IMG/VR virus record: IMGVR_UViG_3300020180_000010
Span: 1 to 64,000 of that record
Strand: one strand, 5' to 3'
Length of the DNA: 64,000 nt
From: a virus
Of the stretch, positions 2 to 49,881 are shown piece by piece. Positions within the stretch are counted from its first letter, which is position 1. Every line of letters starts with the position of its first letter. The position numbers and the translations under genes were made by a program. Below the pieces are notes generated by a model. It did no database searches. It saw only the letters and a program-made list of their open reading frames with translations, and was not told the DNA's origin.

Positions 2-85
2 CATTGGTTTCTGAATGGAAACGAAATAAAATGCTCTGATAATGAAGAATTTATCCGTATTGTACCGATGATAGCAATTTTGTAA
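2..85 (+). CDS. HREDGPA-repeat family protein, 3' end only
   Basis: The gene starts before the window; only the last 27 codons and the TAA are visible. They encode a tail beginning HWFLNGNEIKC and ending in IVPMIAIL. This matches the conserved C-terminal tail of the three complete repeat proteins at 42547-43176, 44950-45450 and 47445-47984, being closest to the last one (QWFLNGNEINC ... IKMIAIW). It is therefore a fourth family member, on the opposite strand to the others. The function of the family is unknown. Confidence 0.75.
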   Translation, partial: HWFLNGNEIKCSDNEEFIRIVPMIAIL

Positions 86-22332: not shown

Positions 22333-22527
22333 CTATGGATACGTATCTTCTCGACAATCGGGTGTCGGTCTATCCGGTTCAGGTTCACAAATTAATTCAC
22401 TACTAATCATCGCGACTCGATAATTAAAATTATCTTTATTTATTTGTCGGGCCAGATTCAGACGTTCTGATTCGGTCAGAACCGTTGCGGTCAGAACCGT
22501 TGCGGTCAGATTAATTTTTTTAGACAT
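22333..22527 (-). CDS. hypothetical protein, 64 aa
   Basis: Short protein with an N-terminal duplicated segment TATVLTATVLT, produced by a 15-base tandem repeat at 22474-22510. The rest (LARQINKDNFNYRVAMISSE) looks helical and the C-terminus is proline-rich and acidic (ICEPEPDRPTPDCRED). Not recognised. It overlaps the preceding gene by 22 bases. Confidence 0.55.
   Translation of the reverse strand: MSKKINLTATVLTATVLTESERLNLARQINKDNFNYRVAMISSELICEPEPDRPTPDCREDTYP
22474..22510. repeat. 15-bp tandem repeat, about 2.5 copies
   Basis: The unit ggtcagaaccgttgc occurs twice head to tail and then half again. It is in frame in the 64-residue gene and duplicates T-A-T-V-L in its protein, so the expansion is silent for frame. 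Confidence 0.85.
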
Positions 22528-36861: not shown

Positions 36862-37229
36862 TATAGTAGATTTTTGTATTTTAAACAATAAGTCGTATTA
36901 GGATTTATAAGGAATTTCTGGTATCCATAAGTATTTGCTATAAGAATTTTAGACGAATGATTATGTGCAGAACTATACAACCAATACAAATATTTTTGTA
37001 TTAGCCCAGAAAATGAATATCTAACTAAAAAGATCAAATTATCAGATTTGCAATAAGATGAAGCTATAAACGATGTACTTTCTTCGTTTGCTTCAAAATC
37101 CCAGACACTTGCTTCAAAATCCCAGACACTTATTTCGTGACCGTATTCTTTAATAATTTCAGAAAATTTCTCCAGAGCAATATTTAGACCAGGGTATTTA
37201 TTATTATTCACCATCCACGGCCTATCCAC
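36861..37229 (-). CDS. hypothetical protein, 122 aa
   Basis: Soluble protein with an in-frame duplication, SVWDFEASVWDFEA, from a 21-base tandem repeat at 37091-37131. Several Tyr- and Phe-rich segments (LIFLVRYSFSGLIQKYLYWL; NTTYCLKYKNLL) suggest a beta/alpha fold. It overlaps the upstream gene by 22 bases; Met6 (37214) would reduce this. Not recognised. Confidence 0.62.
   Translation of the reverse strand: MDRPWMVNNNKYPGLNIALEKFSEIIKEYGHEISVWDFEASVWDFEANEESTSFIASSYCKSDNLIFLVRYSFSGLIQKYLYWLYSSAHNHSSKILIANTYGYQKFLINPNTTYCLKYKNLL
37091..37131. repeat. 21-bp tandem duplication inside a gene
   Basis: The unit cttcaaaatcccagacactt plus one base occurs twice in a row without mismatch apart from the last base. 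It keeps the reading frame of the 122-residue gene and doubles seven residues (SVWDFEA). Confidence 0.88.
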
Positions 37230-42288: not shown

Positions 42289-42348
42289 CATCAACTATAT
42301 CCGATAGGATCGGTTTATATCCGATAGGATCGACTTATATTCGACAGG
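42289..42348 (-). repeat. three 20-bp direct repeats ahead of the FmdB-like gene
   Basis: On minus, three contiguous units read CCTGTCGAATATAAGTCGAT, CCTATCGGATATAAACCGAT and CCTATCGGATATAGTTGATG. The last ends one base before the ATG-containing segment. The middle unit contains an inverted pair ATCGG...CCGAT around ATATAAA. The layout fits an operator array or multiple binding sites for a regulator. Confidence 0.75.
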
Positions 42349-42362
42349 AGTATTATTATAGA

Positions 42363-42536
42363 TTAGCTATCTAATAATTTAAAAATTCTAGAAACAACTT
42401 CATCTGAAGAAAGAACAGGTTTATGCCTACAGCTTCCATCTGATTCAATATTAGTCCCGCCCTTTAAATAACATAATTCGCATGGTAGTTTGCTAGCAAT
42501 ATTAAATAATTTTTGTTTTAATTTACATTTATTCAT
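42363..42536 (-). CDS. small cysteine-containing protein, 57 aa
   Basis: A short gene in the gap between the direct repeats and the first HREDGPA gene. It reads MNKCKLKQKLFNIASKLPCE, LCYLKGGTNIESDGSC, RHKPVLSSDEVVSRIFKLLD. Three late cysteines (CELC and SC) plus His suggest a small zinc-binding site. Gene spacing (10 bases after the upstream stop) fits the operon. Confidence 0.6.
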   Translation of the reverse strand: MNKCKLKQKLFNIASKLPCELCYLKGGTNIESDGSCRHKPVLSSDEVVSRIFKLLDS

Positions 42537-42546
42537 TAAAAATAAA

Positions 42547-43176
42547 TTACCAAATTGGAATCATTTTTATCAAACGGAGAAATTCTTCATTATTAGAACA
42601 ATTTATTATTTTGCCATGGTAAAACCATTCTTCTGTACCATGGTAAAACCATTCTTCTGTACCGCTGGCATATTCGCAAGCTGGTCCATCTTCTCGATGA
42701 CGTTTGCCATTGAGATACCAGCGTTTAGTGCCATCGGCATATTCAATAGCAGGCCCGTCTTCTCTATGAAGATTGCCATTGAGATACCAATGTTTATCGC
42801 AATTAACATATTCAACAGCCGGACCATCTTCTCTATGAAGTTCACCATCAAGATACCATTTTTTAATACCATTATCAAATTCAATAGCTGGTCCATCTTC
42901 TCTATGAATCTCACCATTCCGATACCATATTTTAGTACCATGGGCATATTCGCAAGCAGGCCCATCTTCTCTATGAAGATTGCCATTGAGATACCAATGT
43001 TTATCGCCATTAACATATTCAACAGCCGGTCCATCTTCTCGATGAAGCTTGCAGTTTAAACACCATTTTTTAGTACCATCGGCATATTCGCAAGCTGGTC
43101 CATCTTCTCTATGAAGCTCACCATTTAGATACCAATGTTTATCGCCATTGGCATGTTCGACAATTTTTATTGACAT
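42547..43176 (-). CDS. HREDGPA tandem-repeat protein (MORN-like), 209 aa
   Basis: About seven copies of a 23-residue repeat with consensus [CV]EYxxGxKxWYLNGxxHREDGPA. The repeats resemble MORN/YwqK-type beta-hairpin units (W-Y-x-N-G-x-x-H). The C-terminal tail INCSNNEEFLRLIKMIPIW is shared by all family members here. A 24-base duplication at 42614-42661 repeats TEEWFYHG. Members at 44950-45450 and 47445-47984 differ in repeat number and order. MORN-like repeats often mediate membrane or protein contact; no function is known for this phage set. Confidence 0.82.
   Translation of the reverse strand: MSIKIVEHANGDKHWYLNGELHREDGPACEYADGTKKWCLNCKLHREDGPAVEYVNGDKHWYLNGNLHREDGPACEYAHGTKIWYRNGEIHREDGPAIEFDNGIKKWYLDGELHREDGPAVEYVNCDKHWYLNGNLHREDGPAIEYADGTKRWYLNGKRHREDGPACEYASGTEEWFYHGTEEWFYHGKIINCSNNEEFLRLIKMIPIW
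42614..42661. repeat. 24-bp tandem duplication in an HREDGPA gene
   Basis: A 24-base unit beginning ccatggtaaaaccattcttc occurs twice consecutively. It encodes TEEWFYHG twice near the C-terminal end of the repeat protein and keeps the frame. Confidence 0.9.
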
Positions 43177-43185
43177 GTGATATTT

Positions 43186-43359
43186 TTATTTTAAATGAAG
43201 ATTTTTCCCGATCATTATGAATTCAATATCCTGTGACCAATTCTTTTTAATGAATTGTTTATATTTCTCAGAAATTACTTCAAACGTAACGAATACTTTG
43301 CCAGTATTTTCATCCGTTTCCACACGAATCGCCTGAGCAACGGTTTCGTATTCTGACAT
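43186..43359 (-). CDS. small hypothetical protein, 57 aa
   Basis: A short gene immediately after dnaB: the dnaB TGA and this ATG share a base (TGATG). It reads MSEYETVAQAIRVETDENTG, KVFVTFEVISEKYKQFIKKN, WSQDIEFIMIGKNLHLK. A strand followed by a helix and strand suggests a small folded protein. The coupling to dnaB and plausible composition are the support. Not recognised. Confidence 0.62.
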   Translation of the reverse strand: MSEYETVAQAIRVETDENTGKVFVTFEVISEKYKQFIKKNWSQDIEFIMIGKNLHLK

Positions 43360-44741
43360 CAGAATATTTCTCCCGAGATATCATCAGCTCCTGATATTTC
43401 TCCGGCGTCATCTTGAGGATCATTCTGAAGTCCACAGCAAGCGAAATTCTTAATCAATCTACCTCGTACATTCTCACCGTCACGGTTTTTAATGATATGT
43501 ACGATCATGTCGGGATGCATATTCTCTTCTGGACGCTTTTCAATCTGAAGCGCAACATTTGCGTTCTGAATAATTAATGCAGATCTGCCGATCCTATGGG
43601 CACCGATTTTATCATCTTGAGCCGTATCTTTTCCTTTTTGCATACGATTCAGCTGGACCGCGCTCAACACACATACATTGTAAACACGTGCGAATTCATG
43701 AAGCGAGCCTGATATGGCTCCAAGCTTCAGCCAATCATCCATATCCCCATGGTGTTCCATGAGTCCCAAATAATCCACTACCACAACATCAGGATGGAAT
43801 CTTGCCTTTACATCATTGAAAATTGTTTCGATGCCCTCAATAGTCGCGCCACGCGGAATATCAACGATCTCAAATTCATTCGGGTAACGTTTGATAAATG
43901 CCAATGCCTGACGGACCCGCTCATGCTGGTCTTTTGTCAGAGTACCGTCACGTATCGATCTATACGGAACATCTGCAAGCCTCGAAACAATGCGATTCAA
44001 ACATTGTTCATAAGGCATTTCTAAGGAGAAAAATAGAATATTGTATCCGGTTTTGAATTCAGTGCTACTGATAGTATTTTGCTGTAGCCACATCTGGATG
44101 GCAAAATTCATCAGGAGCATGCTTTTACCGCTCCCGCTTTCGCCCGCTACCAGGAAAAGCTCCGCAGGTCTCAATCCATTTGTTTGGAAATCTAGAAAAT
44201 TATAACCCGTAAGTATCCCTCTACCAAAATTCGGGTCTCTCTGCTTGGCAGAGTAACGATCAACGAAATCCTTAATCGAGTCCTTGAGAGTCTTTTGATT
44301 AAAAGGACTACTTTTGTATAAAGTCTTGATTTTTTCAGTAACGGAATGGATCGCGCTGAGATTTTTTAACGGATCCCCATGAAGTTTTTCATCACTGAAT
44401 ACATTGTCACGCAGCGATAGGAGAAGAGATTCAGCATAACGATCTTTTATTTGCTTCAGATCATGTTTGAATTCTTTATCATTGAGCGGAACCGATTCAA
44501 CCGCAGTCCAGGTTTGTTTTAGATAATCTGCTCTTTGCTGATTATCTTGCCCAGTAAACTCAATCAGAGTACGGAGGGTCGGAAGATCTTTGTAAACTTT
44601 GATATATTGACATACCTGCTTTGCAAAGAGGTACGTATCGGTCTGAAAAACGAACTCTCCGCATTCAGATATGAATTCCGACGCGTTCTTTTTATTCGAA
44701 ATAAGTGTCGCGAGGATCCTTAAATCAAGCTGATCAGTCAT
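43359..44741 (-). CDS. dnaB: replicative DNA helicase, DnaB-like
   Basis: Hexameric 5'-3' helicase that unwinds the replication fork. The RecA-type C-terminal domain has Walker A VAGESGSGKSMLL (about 197-209), ILFFSLEMPYEQCLNRIVSR (the H2-like helix), Walker B VVVVDYLGLMEHHGD (about 316-330), and SAVQLNR (the H3-like Q). The N-terminal domain is short and diverged (EFISECGEFVFQTD). 460 residues. The loader-like ATPase (45447-46205) lies upstream in the same unit, with an HREDGPA gene inserted between. Confidence 0.93.
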   Translation of the reverse strand: MTDQLDLRILATLISNKKNASEFISECGEFVFQTDTYLFAKQVCQYIKVYKDLPTLRTLIEFTGQDNQQRADYLKQTWTAVESVPLNDKEFKHDLKQIKDRYAESLLLSLRDNVFSDEKLHGDPLKNLSAIHSVTEKIKTLYKSSPFNQKTLKDSIKDFVDRYSAKQRDPNFGRGILTGYNFLDFQTNGLRPAELFLVAGESGSGKSMLLMNFAIQMWLQQNTISSTEFKTGYNILFFSLEMPYEQCLNRIVSRLADVPYRSIRDGTLTKDQHERVRQALAFIKRYPNEFEIVDIPRGATIEGIETIFNDVKARFHPDVVVVDYLGLMEHHGDMDDWLKLGAISGSLHEFARVYNVCVLSAVQLNRMQKGKDTAQDDKIGAHRIGRSALIIQNANVALQIEKRPEENMHPDMIVHIIKNRDGENVRGRLIKNFACCGLQNDPQDDAGEISGADDISGEIF

Positions 44742-44949
44742 ACTGATCCAGTCTGCTCAGGAGCTAGTCTCGTCAAATACCTTTTAGGTATTGATTCCTA
44801 AGCGCAACGTGCTGGCTGGCGTGACATCCTGGACATATAATTAGGCCGTACCGCGAGAGACAGTGAGTGAGTGCTTTGAGGTTCCGTCATCAGTATGATC
44901 TTTTGCAGATCCAATATCCAGATTTCTCATTGTAGTGATTTTTCTTTAA
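44742..44949 (-). other. 208-base gap upstream of dnaB, possible small or degenerate gene
   Basis: No gene of normal form fits. One minus frame without a start codon reads LKALTHCLSRYGLIICPGCH and then ASQHVALRNQYLKGI before stopping. Its ICPGCH looks like a zinc knuckle. A different frame has ATG (44927) but only 29 codons (MRNLDIGSAKD...). A 6-bp hairpin (aatacc-tttta-ggtatt) at 44776-44792 is 35 bases before the dnaB start. The stretch may be a leader or a decayed zinc protein gene. Confidence 0.3.
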
Positions 44950-45450
44950 TTACCAAATTGGAATCATTTTTATCAAACGGAGAAATTCTTCATTATTAGA
45001 ACAATTTATTATTTTGCCATGGTAATACCATTGTGTAGCGCCATACTTATGGTCAATAGCTGGTCCGTCCTCTCTATGAAATTTACCTTCAAAAAACCAT
45101 TCTTTGTCACCATTGGCATATTCAACAGCTGGACCATCTTCTCTATGACGCCTACCATTTAGATACCAATATTTGCTACCATCGATATATTCGCAAGCTG
45201 GTCCATCTTCTCTATGAAGCTCACAATTTAGATACCAATGTTTATCGCCATTATACAGTTCAATGGCCGGTCCGTCTTCTCGATGACGTTTGCCGTTCAG
45301 ATACCAGCGTTTAGTGCCATCGGCATATTCAATAGCAGGCCCATCTTCTCTATGAAGTTGACTATTTAGATACCAATATTTGCTACCATCGACTCTTTCA
45401 AATAGCTGACTGCTGCTGCTACTACTTTTATCTTTTCTATGAAGTTTCAT
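44950..45450 (-). CDS. HREDGPA tandem-repeat protein (MORN-like), 166 aa
   Basis: Five to six 23-residue repeats (YWYLNSQLHREDGPAIEYAD; RWYLNGKRHREDGPAIELYN; and so on), then the common tail INCSNNEEFLRLIKMIPIW. The N-terminus MKLHRKDKSSSSSSQ carries a broken repeat and a serine run from a trinucleotide microsatellite. The last about 70 bases of the coding sequence match those of 42547-43176 almost exactly, pointing to recent copying. The start overlaps the stop of the loader gene (ATGA), so it has been added without breaking the coupling. Confidence 0.82.
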   Translation of the reverse strand: MKLHRKDKSSSSSSQLFERVDGSKYWYLNSQLHREDGPAIEYADGTKRWYLNGKRHREDGPAIELYNGDKHWYLNCELHREDGPACEYIDGSKYWYLNGRRHREDGPAVEYANGDKEWFFEGKFHREDGPAIDHKYGATQWYYHGKIINCSNNEEFLRLIKMIPIW

Positions 45451-46205
45451 TTTTTGTTATGCATTGTTTTCCTAAAGTCCTCACCAAAAACCGGCACAAC
45501 CTTTACGTATCCCTTCATCAGTGAATCAATGCTTTGTTTGATTGGCCCGGAGAATGTTTCTACAACATTCGGAGAATTTGTACACATGAATGTTGGGAGC
45601 CTATTTTGAGATCGGGTACGGAAGATGTTTTCAAGAGTTCTTCCGAAAAGATCCGATGCATTATCTGTAGGCATGAATCTGGAATCAAATTCATCAATTA
45701 CAAGAAAATCAACTGTAGTTAGTTCTCTCCTTGCTATGTATTTTTCAGATTCTTCCTTAGAAAGCATAGTTGAAACGATATCACTAAGAGTTGTATAAAG
45801 ACCAGAATAACCTTTTAATGTTGAAGTTTTAATGATATTCGTAACTACGGAGCTTTTTCCTACTCCGTGCAGTCCTGCGAAACATAAAGACATTCCTTTT
45901 GTATAAATACCAGGAAGATCTTTGATAATTTCGTAATATTTTTCTTTTAGTTTTGCCTCGCCTTGGAATGATTTCATATCCAGGTCCCAATACTCAACCG
46001 GGACGTTAGATTCGGCGTATCTACGGATTGCGATGGTTCGGTATAGGCAAGATTTGCAGAGACCGTCATTGAGATTATCGGTTATTTTTGTTTTGGTTAC
46101 GGAGCAATCTGGACAAAGCTGGATTATTTGAAATATCTTTTCCAGAATCTTTCTGGGCGGGATATTGTTGAGAGCGCGACTTCTGGTTAAAGTTTGGGAC
46201 ACCAT
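45447..46205 (-). CDS. DnaC/IstB-type helicase loader ATPase
   Basis: An AAA+ ATPase likely to load the DnaB-like helicase. Walker A is FAGLHGVGKSSVV (about residues 110-122), Walker B VDFLVIDEFDSRF (about 165-177), and the sensor-1-like segment is LPTFMCTNSP. A zinc finger precedes it (LCPDCSV and GLCKSCLYRT). The C-terminal half has SLMKGYVKVVPVFGEDFR, the usual DnaC ending. 252 residues. The first 43 codons overlap the upstream gene in another frame, and the zinc finger's first pair lies inside this overlap. Confidence 0.85.
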   Translation of the reverse strand: MVSQTLTRSRALNNIPPRKILEKIFQIIQLCPDCSVTKTKITDNLNDGLCKSCLYRTIAIRRYAESNVPVEYWDLDMKSFQGEAKLKEKYYEIIKDLPGIYTKGMSLCFAGLHGVGKSSVVTNIIKTSTLKGYSGLYTTLSDIVSTMLSKEESEKYIARRELTTVDFLVIDEFDSRFMPTDNASDLFGRTLENIFRTRSQNRLPTFMCTNSPNVVETFSGPIKQSIDSLMKGYVKVVPVFGEDFRKTMHNKK

Positions 46206-46785
46206 ATTGTACCTGCTGAACCTGCATCATTTCATGAGACGTGAGGTTATTACGGATCTCTTCACGATCAATCTCGTTTAATTGCTTACGAAGATCTGCC
46301 AATCGCTCCAATTGCGCCCGGCTTCGGTTCCCGGTCCTGGCTAGACTATTGAACTCATTTTGAAGTTCTTCCCTGGTCTCAGCCAGTTTGTTCGGGACCT
46401 CTGATTCTGAATTTTCAAATAAATCATCAAAAAGGTTTTCTGGAGAGTCGTTAGACTGTGACCTCACGACCTCCACTCCTTCTTGATCAAACTCATCTAC
46501 CCACATTTCTTCTTGTGGGGTTAGTGTCGGTCCCAATAAAGAGGACATGCCTGCATCACGAGCCTGACTCTCTCTAGGGTTGTGATGCGTTTCAGATTGA
46601 GTCGAAGAGATTTCCGACTGAACCTTTACTGCCAAGACATCCTGTTTAGTTTTTAGTATGATAAATGTTCCACCATCGTGAGCCGCCAGAACAGACTCTT
46701 GGTCTGTCCAGGTACGCACGACACCTTCAAACACAACACCGTTACCGAACATCACCTTTACACGTTGACCCGCCAATGGTTTCAT
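46075..46785 (-). CDS. hypothetical protein with N-terminal beta-barrel and disordered tail, 236 aa
   Basis: Residues 1-55 (KPLAGQRVKVMFGNGVVFEG, VVRTWTDQESVLAAHDGGTF) look like a small SH3/Sm-like barrel. Then a long polar linker (NSESEVPNKLAETREELQNE) and a coiled-coil patch (SRAQLERLADLRKQLNEID). It is encoded between the loader and a 199-residue gene, so it may be a replication accessory factor, for example an SSB or loader partner. It overlaps the loader by 131 bases and is coupled upstream by ATGA. Confidence 0.7.
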   Translation of the reverse strand: MKPLAGQRVKVMFGNGVVFEGVVRTWTDQESVLAAHDGGTFIILKTKQDVLAVKVQSEISSTQSETHHNPRESQARDAGMSSLLGPTLTPQEEMWVDEFDQEGVEVVRSQSNDSPENLFDDLFENSESEVPNKLAETREELQNEFNSLARTGNRSRAQLERLADLRKQLNEIDREEIRNNLTSHEMMQVQQVQYGVPNFNQKSRSQQYPAQKDSGKDISNNPALSRLLRNQNKNNR

Positions 46786-47381
46786 TTAAGTTTCTCCAAT
46801 ATTGAAAAATCAAAGCCAAGAGCCTTTAATTTTTGACATGCTTCTAAATATTTAGGATCGGCTCCATCATCCTGAGCCGCCATAACTAAAAAAGCCAAGC
46901 TTCCGTAGGTTTCACAGCTAGGAAGATTTAGATTCGATAATGCTTCCAAACACGGTGGTGGAAGAAAAGAGTCACGCCGGACTTCTTTCCTGGCCATGTA
47001 TTTAAATTTGAAATCTGTAATGAAAATATTATTGGCCAGAAAACCTATCGCGGTGATACGTTTATTCGTTCCGACAATTTTCGTATCGAAGATCCAATCA
47101 ATATATTCTTTCAAGGTTACGGGATCCGTACTGAGGGACGCGGCGACTCGACTCAATTGATACACTTCATAAGATTTTGACGGAGCCGCGTTAAACTTGA
47201 ACGAATAATCAACTCCATATTGATCTTTATATCGCTTGACGAAATAACCAATCAGATGGGCGGCCTTCCATTTAGAAGGTTCTAATGTATTAATTTCAGA
47301 GAATTTATCAAAGAATTTTTTGTAATGAATGGAAGGTGTAGAAGTGAAGTCCGCGTCATCTGCATTAGATTTCTTTTTCAT
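46782..47381 (-). CDS. hypothetical replication-locus protein, 199 aa
   Basis: Soluble helical protein (HYKKFFDKFSEINTLEPSKW; AAHLIGYFVKRYKDQYGVDY) with a conserved-looking aromatic core. Later helices (LKEYIDWIFDTKIVGTNKR; LEALSNLNLPSC) follow. It belongs to the block of replication genes between the helicase loader and UvsW-like helicase, and is coupled to the 236-residue gene by ATGA. It may be a helicase-assembly factor; no motif confirms this. Confidence 0.72.
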   Translation of the reverse strand: MKKKSNADDADFTSTPSIHYKKFFDKFSEINTLEPSKWKAAHLIGYFVKRYKDQYGVDYSFKFNAAPSKSYEVYQLSRVAASLSTDPVTLKEYIDWIFDTKIVGTNKRITAIGFLANNIFITDFKFKYMARKEVRRDSFLPPPCLEALSNLNLPSCETYGSLAFLVMAAQDDGADPKYLEACQKLKALGFDFSILEKLK

Positions 47382-47444
47382 TTAAATAATTTCTATACGT
47401 TAAAATAGCACGGTGAGACGCTTGAAGTCGAAGAGATCATAACT

Positions 47445-47984
47445 TCACCAAATTGCTATCATTTTTATCAGGCGGGTGAATTCTTCATTATCAAAACAAT
47501 TTATTTCGTTTCCATTCAGAAACCATTGTTTATGACCATTAACATATTCAACAGCCGGACCATCTTCTCGATGACGTTTACCGTTTTGGTACCAAAATTT
47601 GTTACCATCGATATATTCGCAAGCTGGTCCATCTTCTCGATGATGAATGCCATTCAGATACCACTCTTTACCACCTTTGTAATTTTCAATGGCCGGTCCG
47701 TCTTCTCGATGACGTTTGCCATTGAGATACCAATGTTTATCGCCATTAACATATTCAACTCGATGAAGCCTACCATTTAGATACCAATATTTGCTACCAT
47801 CGACATATTCGCAAGCTGGTCCATCTTCTCTATGAAGATTGCCATTGAGACACCAATGTTTATCGCCATTAACATATTCAACAGCCGGACCATCTTCTCG
47901 ATGAAGCCTACCATTTAGATACCAATGTTTATCGCCATTGACAAATTCAACACTCGGGTCTTCATGTTTATAAAATAAATTCAT
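47445..47984 (-). CDS. HREDGPA tandem-repeat protein (MORN-like), 179 aa
   Basis: About seven repeats of the same 23-residue unit. One copy lacks five residues (GRLHR runs straight into VEYVNG), an in-frame 15-base loss within the array. The tail HKQWFLNGNEINCFDNEEF is the closest match to the left-edge fragment at 2-85. It begins MNLFYKHEDPSVEFVNG and stands in a gap between two replication-locus genes. Repeat order and sequence differ from the other members, which suggests independent shuffling. Confidence 0.82.
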   Translation of the reverse strand: MNLFYKHEDPSVEFVNGDKHWYLNGRLHREDGPAVEYVNGDKHWCLNGNLHREDGPACEYVDGSKYWYLNGRLHRVEYVNGDKHWYLNGKRHREDGPAIENYKGGKEWYLNGIHHREDGPACEYIDGNKFWYQNGKRHREDGPAVEYVNGHKQWFLNGNEINCFDNEEFTRLIKMIAIW

Positions 47985-48010: not shown

Positions 48011-48403
48011 CTAAACAATACTGATAAGTTTTTCATAATCCTGTGGTACATGACGTTGTATTAGAGGTCCGGCGTTATAAATGATAATTTTATCAGAATT
48101 CAATAATTCAAATGTTGATTCGGCATTTTCTGCAAAAACCACCGGCATACCATAAATATATTGCCATGACAAATACCATGGATACATAATAGAAATTATT
48201 GTTTCGTGCCCAAATGTTATATTATTTAGACTTAAAACCCTAAGAGATTCCATTGAGTTTAGAGGATATTTCTTGTAAGATACAAATAAACTTTTATTAT
48301 CAGTATAGGTACGGTGATAGTCTGATATGAATTCATATTCATCGATAAGCTCGGCACCTCTGGCAAACATTTTGGTAAGAAAAATTATTTTTTCTTGTTC
48401 CAC
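48011..48403 (-). CDS. hypothetical protein, 130 aa
   Basis: Unrecognised soluble protein with a Tyr/Trp-rich middle (ISIMYPWYLSWQYIYGMP) and a beta-type C-terminus (SDKIIIYNAGPLIQRHVPQD). Its GTG start overlaps the end of the helicase gene by 19 bases; ATG 48370 is an alternative. Confidence 0.65.
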   Translation of the reverse strand: MEQEKIIFLTKMFARGAELIDEYEFISDYHRTYTDNKSLFVSYKKYPLNSMESLRVLSLNNITFGHETIISIMYPWYLSWQYIYGMPVVFAENAESTFELLNSDKIIIYNAGPLIQRHVPQDYEKLISIV

Positions 48404-49881
48404 TTTACGTCAAAACCTTCTTCTGATTTATAGACTTTATATCTTATTTTAGAGTGTTTATCGAGCCACTTGCAATTATCGGCAAAATCAACCACCGCCG
48501 CAAAACGTTTGCCAGGAAACTTACGGATGACCCGACCGATCCTTTGGATCGATTTTATGCTTGATTTACCAGCACACGCGATCACCAGTCCTGATAGGGA
48601 GGGCAGGTCGACCCCTATCTCGAAGATCTTTGAGGCCAAGATGCATTTGATCTTACCCTCGGTTAATTGCTTCTTCACCGCCTCACGCTCCTCCGCTGAA
48701 TCTGAACCATCCAGAATCGCACATGGTAACTCCTGACGAATCATGTCATACAATATTCTACCGTGAGATAAATTGTTAAACAGAACAAGTGTCTGGTATC
48801 CCTGATCAACAATCTGTTTCGTTGCCTTCAGAACCAATTCATTCCGTACAGGATTCTCCACTACGTATTTTTTATATACTGATTGATAATTGTTCTGTAT
48901 CTCTCCATCATATTCCGGAACTGTCATGAACCTGATTATAGGCCTGGCAAGCAATCCCCTCTCGATAAGATAACTTGCCGGAATATTAACTATATATTTT
49001 CCAAGGATCCCTTCAACCAACAAATCTGCATTGTCTTCCCTCCAAGGAGACCCGGATAATCCATAAATATATTCTGATGATTTTAAATGCTTGTATATTT
49101 TCTGAATAGTTTCACACGCACAAACATGACACTCATCAAACTGATGAACCTTTGCAGTTTCGATCATTTTGATAATATCATTCTTTTTATCAAGATTCAG
49201 TGTCTCATCATCTTGCTCCGAATCAACCAGAATCTCATTCTTTTTCAATCCTAATGCTTGACCGATTGTCCAGATACTAGCGATGGTCACGTTACGGATG
49301 TTACAGTGCCCATCACCTACCATTCCGACGTTTTCTGTTCCGAGCAATTCTGAATAAAGATTATAAAATTGATAAAGAAGATCTTTTCCAATTACATAAA
49401 TAACTGTAGATCGGTTCAGATCACATGTAATTAGAAGTGAAATTAATGATTTTCCTGAACCTGTAGCGGATTTAATTATCCCACGATCATGCAGTCGAAC
49501 CTGATCCAAAACTGCTAATTGATAATCATATGGTTCTTTCCCAATAGCTTTTAATTTTAATAAAATATTGTCAAGATCAGGTTTAACACTTGATTTAGCT
49601 GGACGCTGATCCTGAACGGTATACTGGATATTCTGTTCAGAATAGAACTGCTGTATCCTGGGAACTAAACCCGTTGGAAATTTTAGATCTCCTGTAAGTA
49701 TTTTCCGTACACCATCCCAACGTTGGAATTTACCAGACTTATCAACGAATCCTTTAAAAGCTCGGCTATACTGGGCGCCCGGAACTCGAAATGATAGGAG
49801 CTGATCCAATCTGATCAATAGCTCAGGATCATCTTCAGATTGTATCTGGCTATAATTTCCCAGTATAACGATTTGACGCAT
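48385..49881 (-). CDS. SF2 DNA/RNA helicase, UvsW-like
   Basis: A superfamily 2 helicase similar to T4 UvsW, which remodels branched DNA and processes R-loops at origins. Motif I is IKSATGSGKSLISL (about 138-151), motif II VHQFDECHVC (DECH, about 248), motif III LSGSPWRED, motif V FEIGVDLPSL, and motif VI SIQRIGRVIRKFPG (about 446). The first 100 residues form a family-type N-terminal domain (RWDGVRKILTGDLKFPTGLV). 498 residues, full length. It fits a recombination-dependent replication role. Confidence 0.9.
   Translation of the reverse strand: MRQIVILGNYSQIQSEDDPELLIRLDQLLSFRVPGAQYSRAFKGFVDKSGKFQRWDGVRKILTGDLKFPTGLVPRIQQFYSEQNIQYTVQDQRPAKSSVKPDLDNILLKLKAIGKEPYDYQLAVLDQVRLHDRGIIKSATGSGKSLISLLITCDLNRSTVIYVIGKDLLYQFYNLYSELLGTENVGMVGDGHCNIRNVTIASIWTIGQALGLKKNEILVDSEQDDETLNLDKKNDIIKMIETAKVHQFDECHVCACETIQKIYKHLKSSEYIYGLSGSPWREDNADLLVEGILGKYIVNIPASYLIERGLLARPIIRFMTVPEYDGEIQNNYQSVYKKYVVENPVRNELVLKATKQIVDQGYQTLVLFNNLSHGRILYDMIRQELPCAILDGSDSAEEREAVKKQLTEGKIKCILASKIFEIGVDLPSLSGLVIACAGKSSIKSIQRIGRVIRKFPGKRFAAVVDFADNCKWLDKHSKIRYKVYKSEEGFDVKWNKKK

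Follow-up and report, generated by a model that had tools for sequence, protein, structure and literature searches.

A family of HREDGPA repeat genes interspersed in a phage replication operon, with a predicted MORN-class fold

Why should a phage carry, between the genes of its replication operon, several copies of a repeat-protein gene for which the papers we searched give no bacteriophage function, when a single 122-kb contig can hold at least 68 genes of the same family? The question is raised by three complete genes, called here A, B and C, that sit around the genes for a DnaB-type helicase, its putative loader and a UvsW-like helicase in bases 1-64000 (the window) of the 124,347-bp virus record IMGVR_UViG_3300020180_000010, which is incomplete as a contig. 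Each encodes an array of a 23-residue unit ending in HREDGPA. An earlier sequence-only reading had taken them for a family under active duplication and shuffling, as in variable recognition proteins. Here we show that the three genes lie in gaps that related phages keep free of them, and we consider it probable, on the evidence set out below, that they are mobile accessory genes of a jumbo-phage lineage which encode MORN-class repeat proteins, that their paralogues recombine and, more tentatively, that the proteins act as modular protein-binding adaptors. The fold, the insertional origin within a conserved operon and the breadth of the family were all absent from the sequence-only reading.

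The genes themselves are as that reading described them: every one of the 17 exact HREDGPA motifs in the 64 kb falls inside A, B or C, a truncated copy lies at the left edge, and no further copy was found in the remaining 60 kb of the contig. The arrays have a 69-bp periodicity (Tandem Repeats Finder, TRF), and their unit follows the consensus [IVC]-E-x-x-x-G-x-K-x-W-Y-L-N-G-x-x-H-R-E-D-G-P-A. A C-terminal cap, (C/S)xxxEEFxRLIKxxxW in this lineage, closes the array, and a second subtype of this tail is shared by gene C and the left-edge copy. Gene A has gained 24 bases as an exact tandem duplication, and unit 2 of gene C has lost the 15 bp for EDGPA (junction 47759/47760), both as previously noted. 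Every indel is a multiple of three in length, no frame in the three genes is interrupted and the caps are kept. A plus-strand open reading frame (ORF) at 42490-43059 was rejected as a gene, being a mirror image of the array.

Comparison of the copies with one another reveals exchange. Mean unit identity is 74.6% within genes and 75.7% between them, and in 4 of 14 cases a unit's nearest neighbour is found within its own gene, against 4.15 expected by chance. The longest exact runs shared at the DNA level measure 76 bp (A-B), 44 bp (A-C) and 36 bp (B-C), whereas back-translation, repeated 60 times with codon usage taken from the genes themselves, gave maxima of 41, 36 and 32. The runs exceed this synonymous-codon null, so the genes either exchanged DNA or descend in these stretches from recent common copies, and protein constraint alone is insufficient as an explanation. 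The A-B run, which makes exact the near-identity of 3' ends already remarked on, reaches the stop codon, and identity is lost within 2 nt beyond it. Recombination among paralogues is the account best supported by these sequence comparisons, and the proposed duplication, exchange and unit-level indels agree with them.

What do such arrays look like? Structure prediction, one of the checks proposed in the earlier reading, gave confident AlphaFold2 models of a MORN class. The gene B model, built on a 32-row alignment, has a mean predicted local distance difference test score (pLDDT) of 92.9 and a predicted template modelling score (pTM) of 0.79, and is a regular beta repeat with one C-terminal helix (residues 153-162). 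The gene A model scores 91.9 and 0.81, and its only segment with pLDDT <50 (residues 185-187) falls within the 24-bp duplication. In the predicted structures 23-residue beta-hairpin units stack into an elongated sheet, the arrangement that defines MORN proteins structurally, and MORN proteins rank first when the models of A and B are searched against the PDB with Foldseek (MORN1, 6t68; E=8e-7 for B and 9e-9 for A). The MORN1 matches come from T. brucei, T. gondii and P. falciparum, with radial spoke proteins, junctophilin and MORN4 next. Matches among viral models are uncharacterised phage proteins and mimivirus and Harvfovirus proteins, some of them annotated 'MORN repeat-containing'. On these predictions the window proteins are divergent members of the MORN class, beta-hairpin arrays closed by a helical cap, rather than an unknown fold.

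The likeness to characterised MORN repeat proteins (PF02493; TbMORN1/TgMORN1/PfMORN1, junctophilin, MORN4) extends to the unit length, the elongated all-beta array, and aromatic- and glycine-rich repeats numbering 2 to more than 20. The window proteins differ in having HREDGPA and the C-terminal helical cap, and in a hairpin spacing that, by our own reading, is shifted by 2 residues. MORN_2/YwqK repeats (PF07661) are likewise short G-x-x-x-W/Y-Y-x-N-G hairpin units, but gene A reaches just 17.2 bits against a cut-off of 29.6, and no match is listed for B or C. All three proteins do pass the cut-off for DUF6745 (PF20530; 44.7, 29.2 and 31.2 vs 27 bits); the best stretches, however, align about 20 of 206 profile positions, which are the repeat motif itself, and are not evidence of a shared whole domain. 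Beta-flower proteins, closed barrels of 8-12 strands around a C-terminal helix, have been linked to a 'MORN repeat variant', and many have a C-terminal hydrophobic helix (PMC10584680). Gene B has a predicted helix in that position, whereas the range of 2-13 repeats in the HREDGPA family would argue against a closed barrel with a set number of strands. Repeat type and fold are the same in uncharacterised proteins of phages and giant viruses (uncultured Caudovirales, Atu_ph07, P12053L, mimivirus R871 and the Harvfovirus proteins), with TM-scores of up to 0.82 over 149 columns for A0A6J5LA02; their copy numbers and caps vary by lineage, and they have no described function. NCBIfam and PADLOC searches with the window proteins returned only partial low-score matches, such as HcaE and BrxA fragments, phmmer against the PDB gave one irrelevant dioxygenase match, and a literature search for HREDGPA and for DUF6745 returned no papers.

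Selection on the units was measured as the proportions of nonsynonymous (pN) and synonymous (pS) differences in 224 close unit pairs from 16 sets, the window contributing 7 pairs. Units are spaced by 23 residues in 211 of 220 intervals, and HRxxGPA is nearly invariant. At H17, R18, G21, P22 and A23 pN is 0-0.003, while pS is 0.30-0.34 at G21, P22 and A23; this combination of near-zero pN with high pS means that the frame is translated and the scaffold constrained. At positions 1, 3, 4, 7, 9 and 16, pN is 0.21-0.32 against an overall pS of 0.20, which suggests that about six variable positions make up a diversifying surface. The idea that the binding surface diversifies is partly supported by these positions across the family. 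The window's own units are under purifying selection overall (pS 0.29, pN 0.08).

How the genes came to lie in a replication operon can be judged from relatives, which were gathered with DnaB and UvsW as baits (20 records, several >400 kb; a 452-aa gene used as bait gave no matches). As far as the contigs reach, the order UvsW-g199-g236-loader-DnaB-g63-g98-g209 is kept in 20 of 20 relatives, and none has an HREDGPA gene inside the operon. The start codon of gene B overlaps the loader stop (ATGA), the site at which dnaB starts in relatives: loader and dnaB lie within a few bases of each other or overlap in most of the 17 records that have both (ATGA in L009), and are spaced by about 385 bp in three. 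In the window dnaB begins 208 nt past gene B. Gene A, which starts 9 nt after the preceding gene, lies with a small ORF in the gap between g63 and g98, and gene C lies with a 130-aa ORF in that between UvsW and g199. The tight operon spacing attributed to every copy thus applies to the starts of A and B, but not to the non-coding stretch between B and dnaB or to C beside its extra ORF. That stretch has no Rfam match and folds no better than shuffles, and promoter and terminator scans gave nothing clearly above shuffle level. GC content at third codon positions (GC3) is 0.23-0.26 in A, B, C and the 130-aa ORF, against 0.33-0.44 in most operon neighbours. The 130-aa ORF overlaps the UvsW 3' end, is matched neither in phage records nor in Pfam, and may have come in along with gene C.

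In relatives, other ORFs occupy gaps of this operon, and some of them resemble homing endonucleases by weak scores or by motif only: a GIY-YIG-like ORF in L077 scores 22.3 bits, just under the cut-off of 22.6, and one in L085 has a weak HNH score. The gaps are therefore general insertion sites. No endonuclease domain, the mark of a homing-type gene, was found in the three genes or in the 130-aa ORF. Whole-record searches located HREDGPA repeats outside the operon, with 16 matches elsewhere in one 448-kb relative (G031), where caps such as INCSSQEEFEKILKLKIFW resemble INCSNNEEFLRLIKMIPIW, and one match in each of three more relatives, so the family is not foreign to this phage clade. The absence of HREDGPA genes from the operon in 20 relatives, with matches bearing the same cap elsewhere, argues for mobile accessory genes that settle in insertion-prone gaps. 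Coordinates are collected in Table 1.

Table 1. Positions of the HREDGPA genes, their operon neighbours and ORFs in the operon gaps of relatives (window coordinates unless a locus is named).
Feature	Position	Strand	Remarks
Gene A, HREDGPA repeat protein	42547..43176	-	209 aa, 7 exact HREDGPA motifs and C-terminal cap
3' end of gene A, 76 bp	42547..42622	-	identical to gene B 3' end (44950-45025)
Exact 24-bp tandem duplication in gene A	42614..42663	-	GTEEWFYH twice; TRF 100% match
g63, conserved small operon gene	43186..43359	-	57 aa, directly upstream of gene A; order kept in relatives
DnaB-type replicative helicase	43359..44741	-	PF03796 113.6 bits; synteny anchor
Non-coding gap between gene B and dnaB	44742..44949	-	208 nt
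Gene B, HREDGPA repeat protein	44950..45450	-	166 aa, 5 exact motifs and cap
AAA+ helicase loader-like protein	45447..46205	-	PF00004 22.5 bits; 63% identical in L008
g199, conserved operon gene	46782..47381	-	199 aa, downstream of gene C
Gene C, HREDGPA repeat protein	47445..47984	-	179 aa, 5 exact motifs and cap (second tail subtype)
130-aa ORF, between UvsW and g199 with gene C	48011..48403	-	GC3 0.25
UvsW-like helicase	48385..49881	-	PF21241 UvsW_N 32.3 bits; synteny anchor; 18 relatives at 49-62% identity
Truncated 3' end of fourth HREDGPA gene at contig edge (HWFLNGNEIKCSDNEEFIRIVPMIAIL)	2..85	+	
Homing-endonuclease-like ORFs in operon gaps of relatives	L077:11544-11687, L077:16265-16828, L085:11538-12329, L079:14847-15500, L008:11410-11895		one near-threshold GIY-YIG, others HNH-/zinc-finger-like, weak

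Short tandem repeats also occur outside the arrays. A 20-bp repeat, TATATCCGATAGGATCGACT, is present in 2.7 copies at window positions 42296-42349, upstream of the conserved g98 and adjoining gene A, and perfect repeats of 15 bp and 21 bp lie at 22473-22510 and 37088-37131.

Beyond this clade the family is widespread and, on its sequence distribution, lineage-specifically expanded. With one bait, HREDGPA genes were found in 36 IMG/VR loci; they also occur in Celeribacter phage P12053L and Agrobacterium phage Atu_ph07, proteins of the type are among the giant-virus models, and bacterial plasmids carry the repeats (L073 and L074, from Frigidibacter mobilis and Miltoncostaea oceani, and Curtobacterium megaplasmids) at 4-10 matching places per plasmid. 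One bait in cellular genomes yielded a single locus, in a Bryobacterales metagenome-assembled genome. Paralogues carry 2-13 repeats per gene, most numbers being small, so that the comparison of repeat number across the family bears out its variability, and each genome tends to have its own cap, common to most of its paralogues. Match counts range from 0, the figure for the contigs available from many relatives, to about 100 in a single record. In the 122-kb contig mentioned at the outset (G009, loci L059-L064) the genes, at least 68 with 270 units, take up 26% of the 120 kb read, with TROVE/Ro60, TnpB, intein-containing ThyX and LysRS genes as neighbours. Contigs often end inside or beside HREDGPA genes (the window start, L018, L021, L036, L037 and L048), so assemblies probably undercount them, in agreement with a published study in which long reads yielded MORN-repeat proteins 37 times more often than assemblies did (PMC9238414). 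Lineage-specific growth in copy number recalls the gene expansions of large DNA viruses for which an accordion-like model was put forward in a 2015 comparison of giant viruses (PMC4468942); the carrier considered here, however, is a bacteriophage.

Some members of the family are fused to other domains. HREDGPA arrays stand C-terminal to a domain with a TQWCTA/TKWCTA motif, which has no Pfam match, in several tandem paralogues (L016:4224-5606, L016:6185-7438, L025:4446-5657). At L019:2946-3689 a single ORF encodes both an array and a domain of the MazG nucleotide pyrophosphohydrolase type (37.2 bits), a possible functional lead.

Could the arrays instead be structural? Scaffolding is a common role of MORN proteins (radial spoke, basal complex, junctophilin), and the HREDGPA proteins might be rods in the virion or the infected cell, acting as spacers or as membrane or virion tethers, with repeat number setting their length and not binding specificity; the regular 23-residue spacing suits such a role, and the conserved terminal caps could dimerise, as MORN1 C-termini do (PMC7725318). 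Match counts that differ as widely as 0 and about 100 per record do not befit a core structural part, however, the window copies sit in a replication operon, and repeat numbers are mostly small and unequal between paralogues of one phage, so that we regard a scaffold as unlikely. Somewhat more unlikely is proliferation that is selfish or neutral. Where phage recombination systems are strong, repetitive DNA recombines readily, and its proteins might be tolerated without being useful; the homing-endonuclease-like ORFs in the operon gaps of relatives, the indels in two of the three copies and the low-confidence loop at the 24-bp duplication would all be expected of such spread. What speaks against it is the codon-level constraint on H, R, G, P and A described above, together with indels that leave frames and caps intact.

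Two further accounts are much less probable. The sub-threshold MORN_2 match and units resembling the YYxNG type would suit immunity or antitoxin-type proteins similar to those of the YwqK family, but this is a very improbable reading: no toxin gene was recognised beside the copies, no NCBIfam or PADLOC model of such a protein matches, and many paralogues per genome are without evident partners. Least credible of all is a variable protein like those of diversity-generating retroelements (DGRs). Variable positions on a fixed scaffold are what such a protein would display, yet the 124-kb record, incomplete as it is, has no reverse transcriptase (PF00078) in a search whose controls were positive, and the variation is spread over many codon types instead of being adenine-specific.

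Modular binding adaptors aimed at host or phage proteins remain the most likely interpretation. We favour it by analogy, because a MORN groove can bind protein (that of MORN4 binds Myo3a with high affinity, in work cited in PMC7725318) and because a constrained scaffold with varying positions is here combined with lineage-variable copy number. According to this model, each 23-residue unit is predicted to form a beta-hairpin, the units to stack into an elongated sheet and the short helical cap to close the array. Copies would arrive by ectopic recombination into insertion-prone gaps, after which slippage and conversion between paralogues would add, remove and reassort units. More tentatively, the finished protein may be made alongside the replication proteins as a modular protein-binding adaptor whose variable surface positions choose the partner.

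Several observations weigh against this model. None of the three proteins matches PF02493 (MORN) at E<=10, and the consensus YxGEW...G...GxG is absent from them; TM-scores to MORN1 are only 0.4-0.5 and the curvature differs, which on the models would mean the same class with another curvature and no superposition. The pairs behind the excess of pN over pS are not independent of one another, and the variable positions had initially been chosen on a data set that overlaps this one, so that diversification is suggested rather than proven, and the window units alone are too few for such a signal. No array differs within strain pairs of 99.4-100% identity, the range of divergence that was compared, so a fast tempo is not shown and the earlier description of the shuffling as 'active' is not supported. 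The operon gaps also gather unrelated ORFs, and proximity to dnaB need not mean a role in replication. Finally, the step to a host target is taken by inference: a protein of the host, for example a defence or takeover target, is the partner we favour, but the proposal is tentative and rather doubtful. More doubtful still is the fuller idea of a phage-encoded, recombining repertoire of MORN-type binders, in which units reassorted among dozens of paralogues would retarget the proteins to changing host proteins.

A fixed scaffold with few changing positions, exchanged among paralogues, is nonetheless the layout expected of a recognition repertoire, and should the repertoire prove real it would constitute a protein-based, non-DGR diversification system filling as much as one quarter of a phage contig. 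The comparison with empty sites in a conserved replication operon shows the points at which such genes enter phage genomes, and naming the proteins as MORN-class provides a concrete, testable hypothesis for what has been a widespread phage 'hypothetical protein'.

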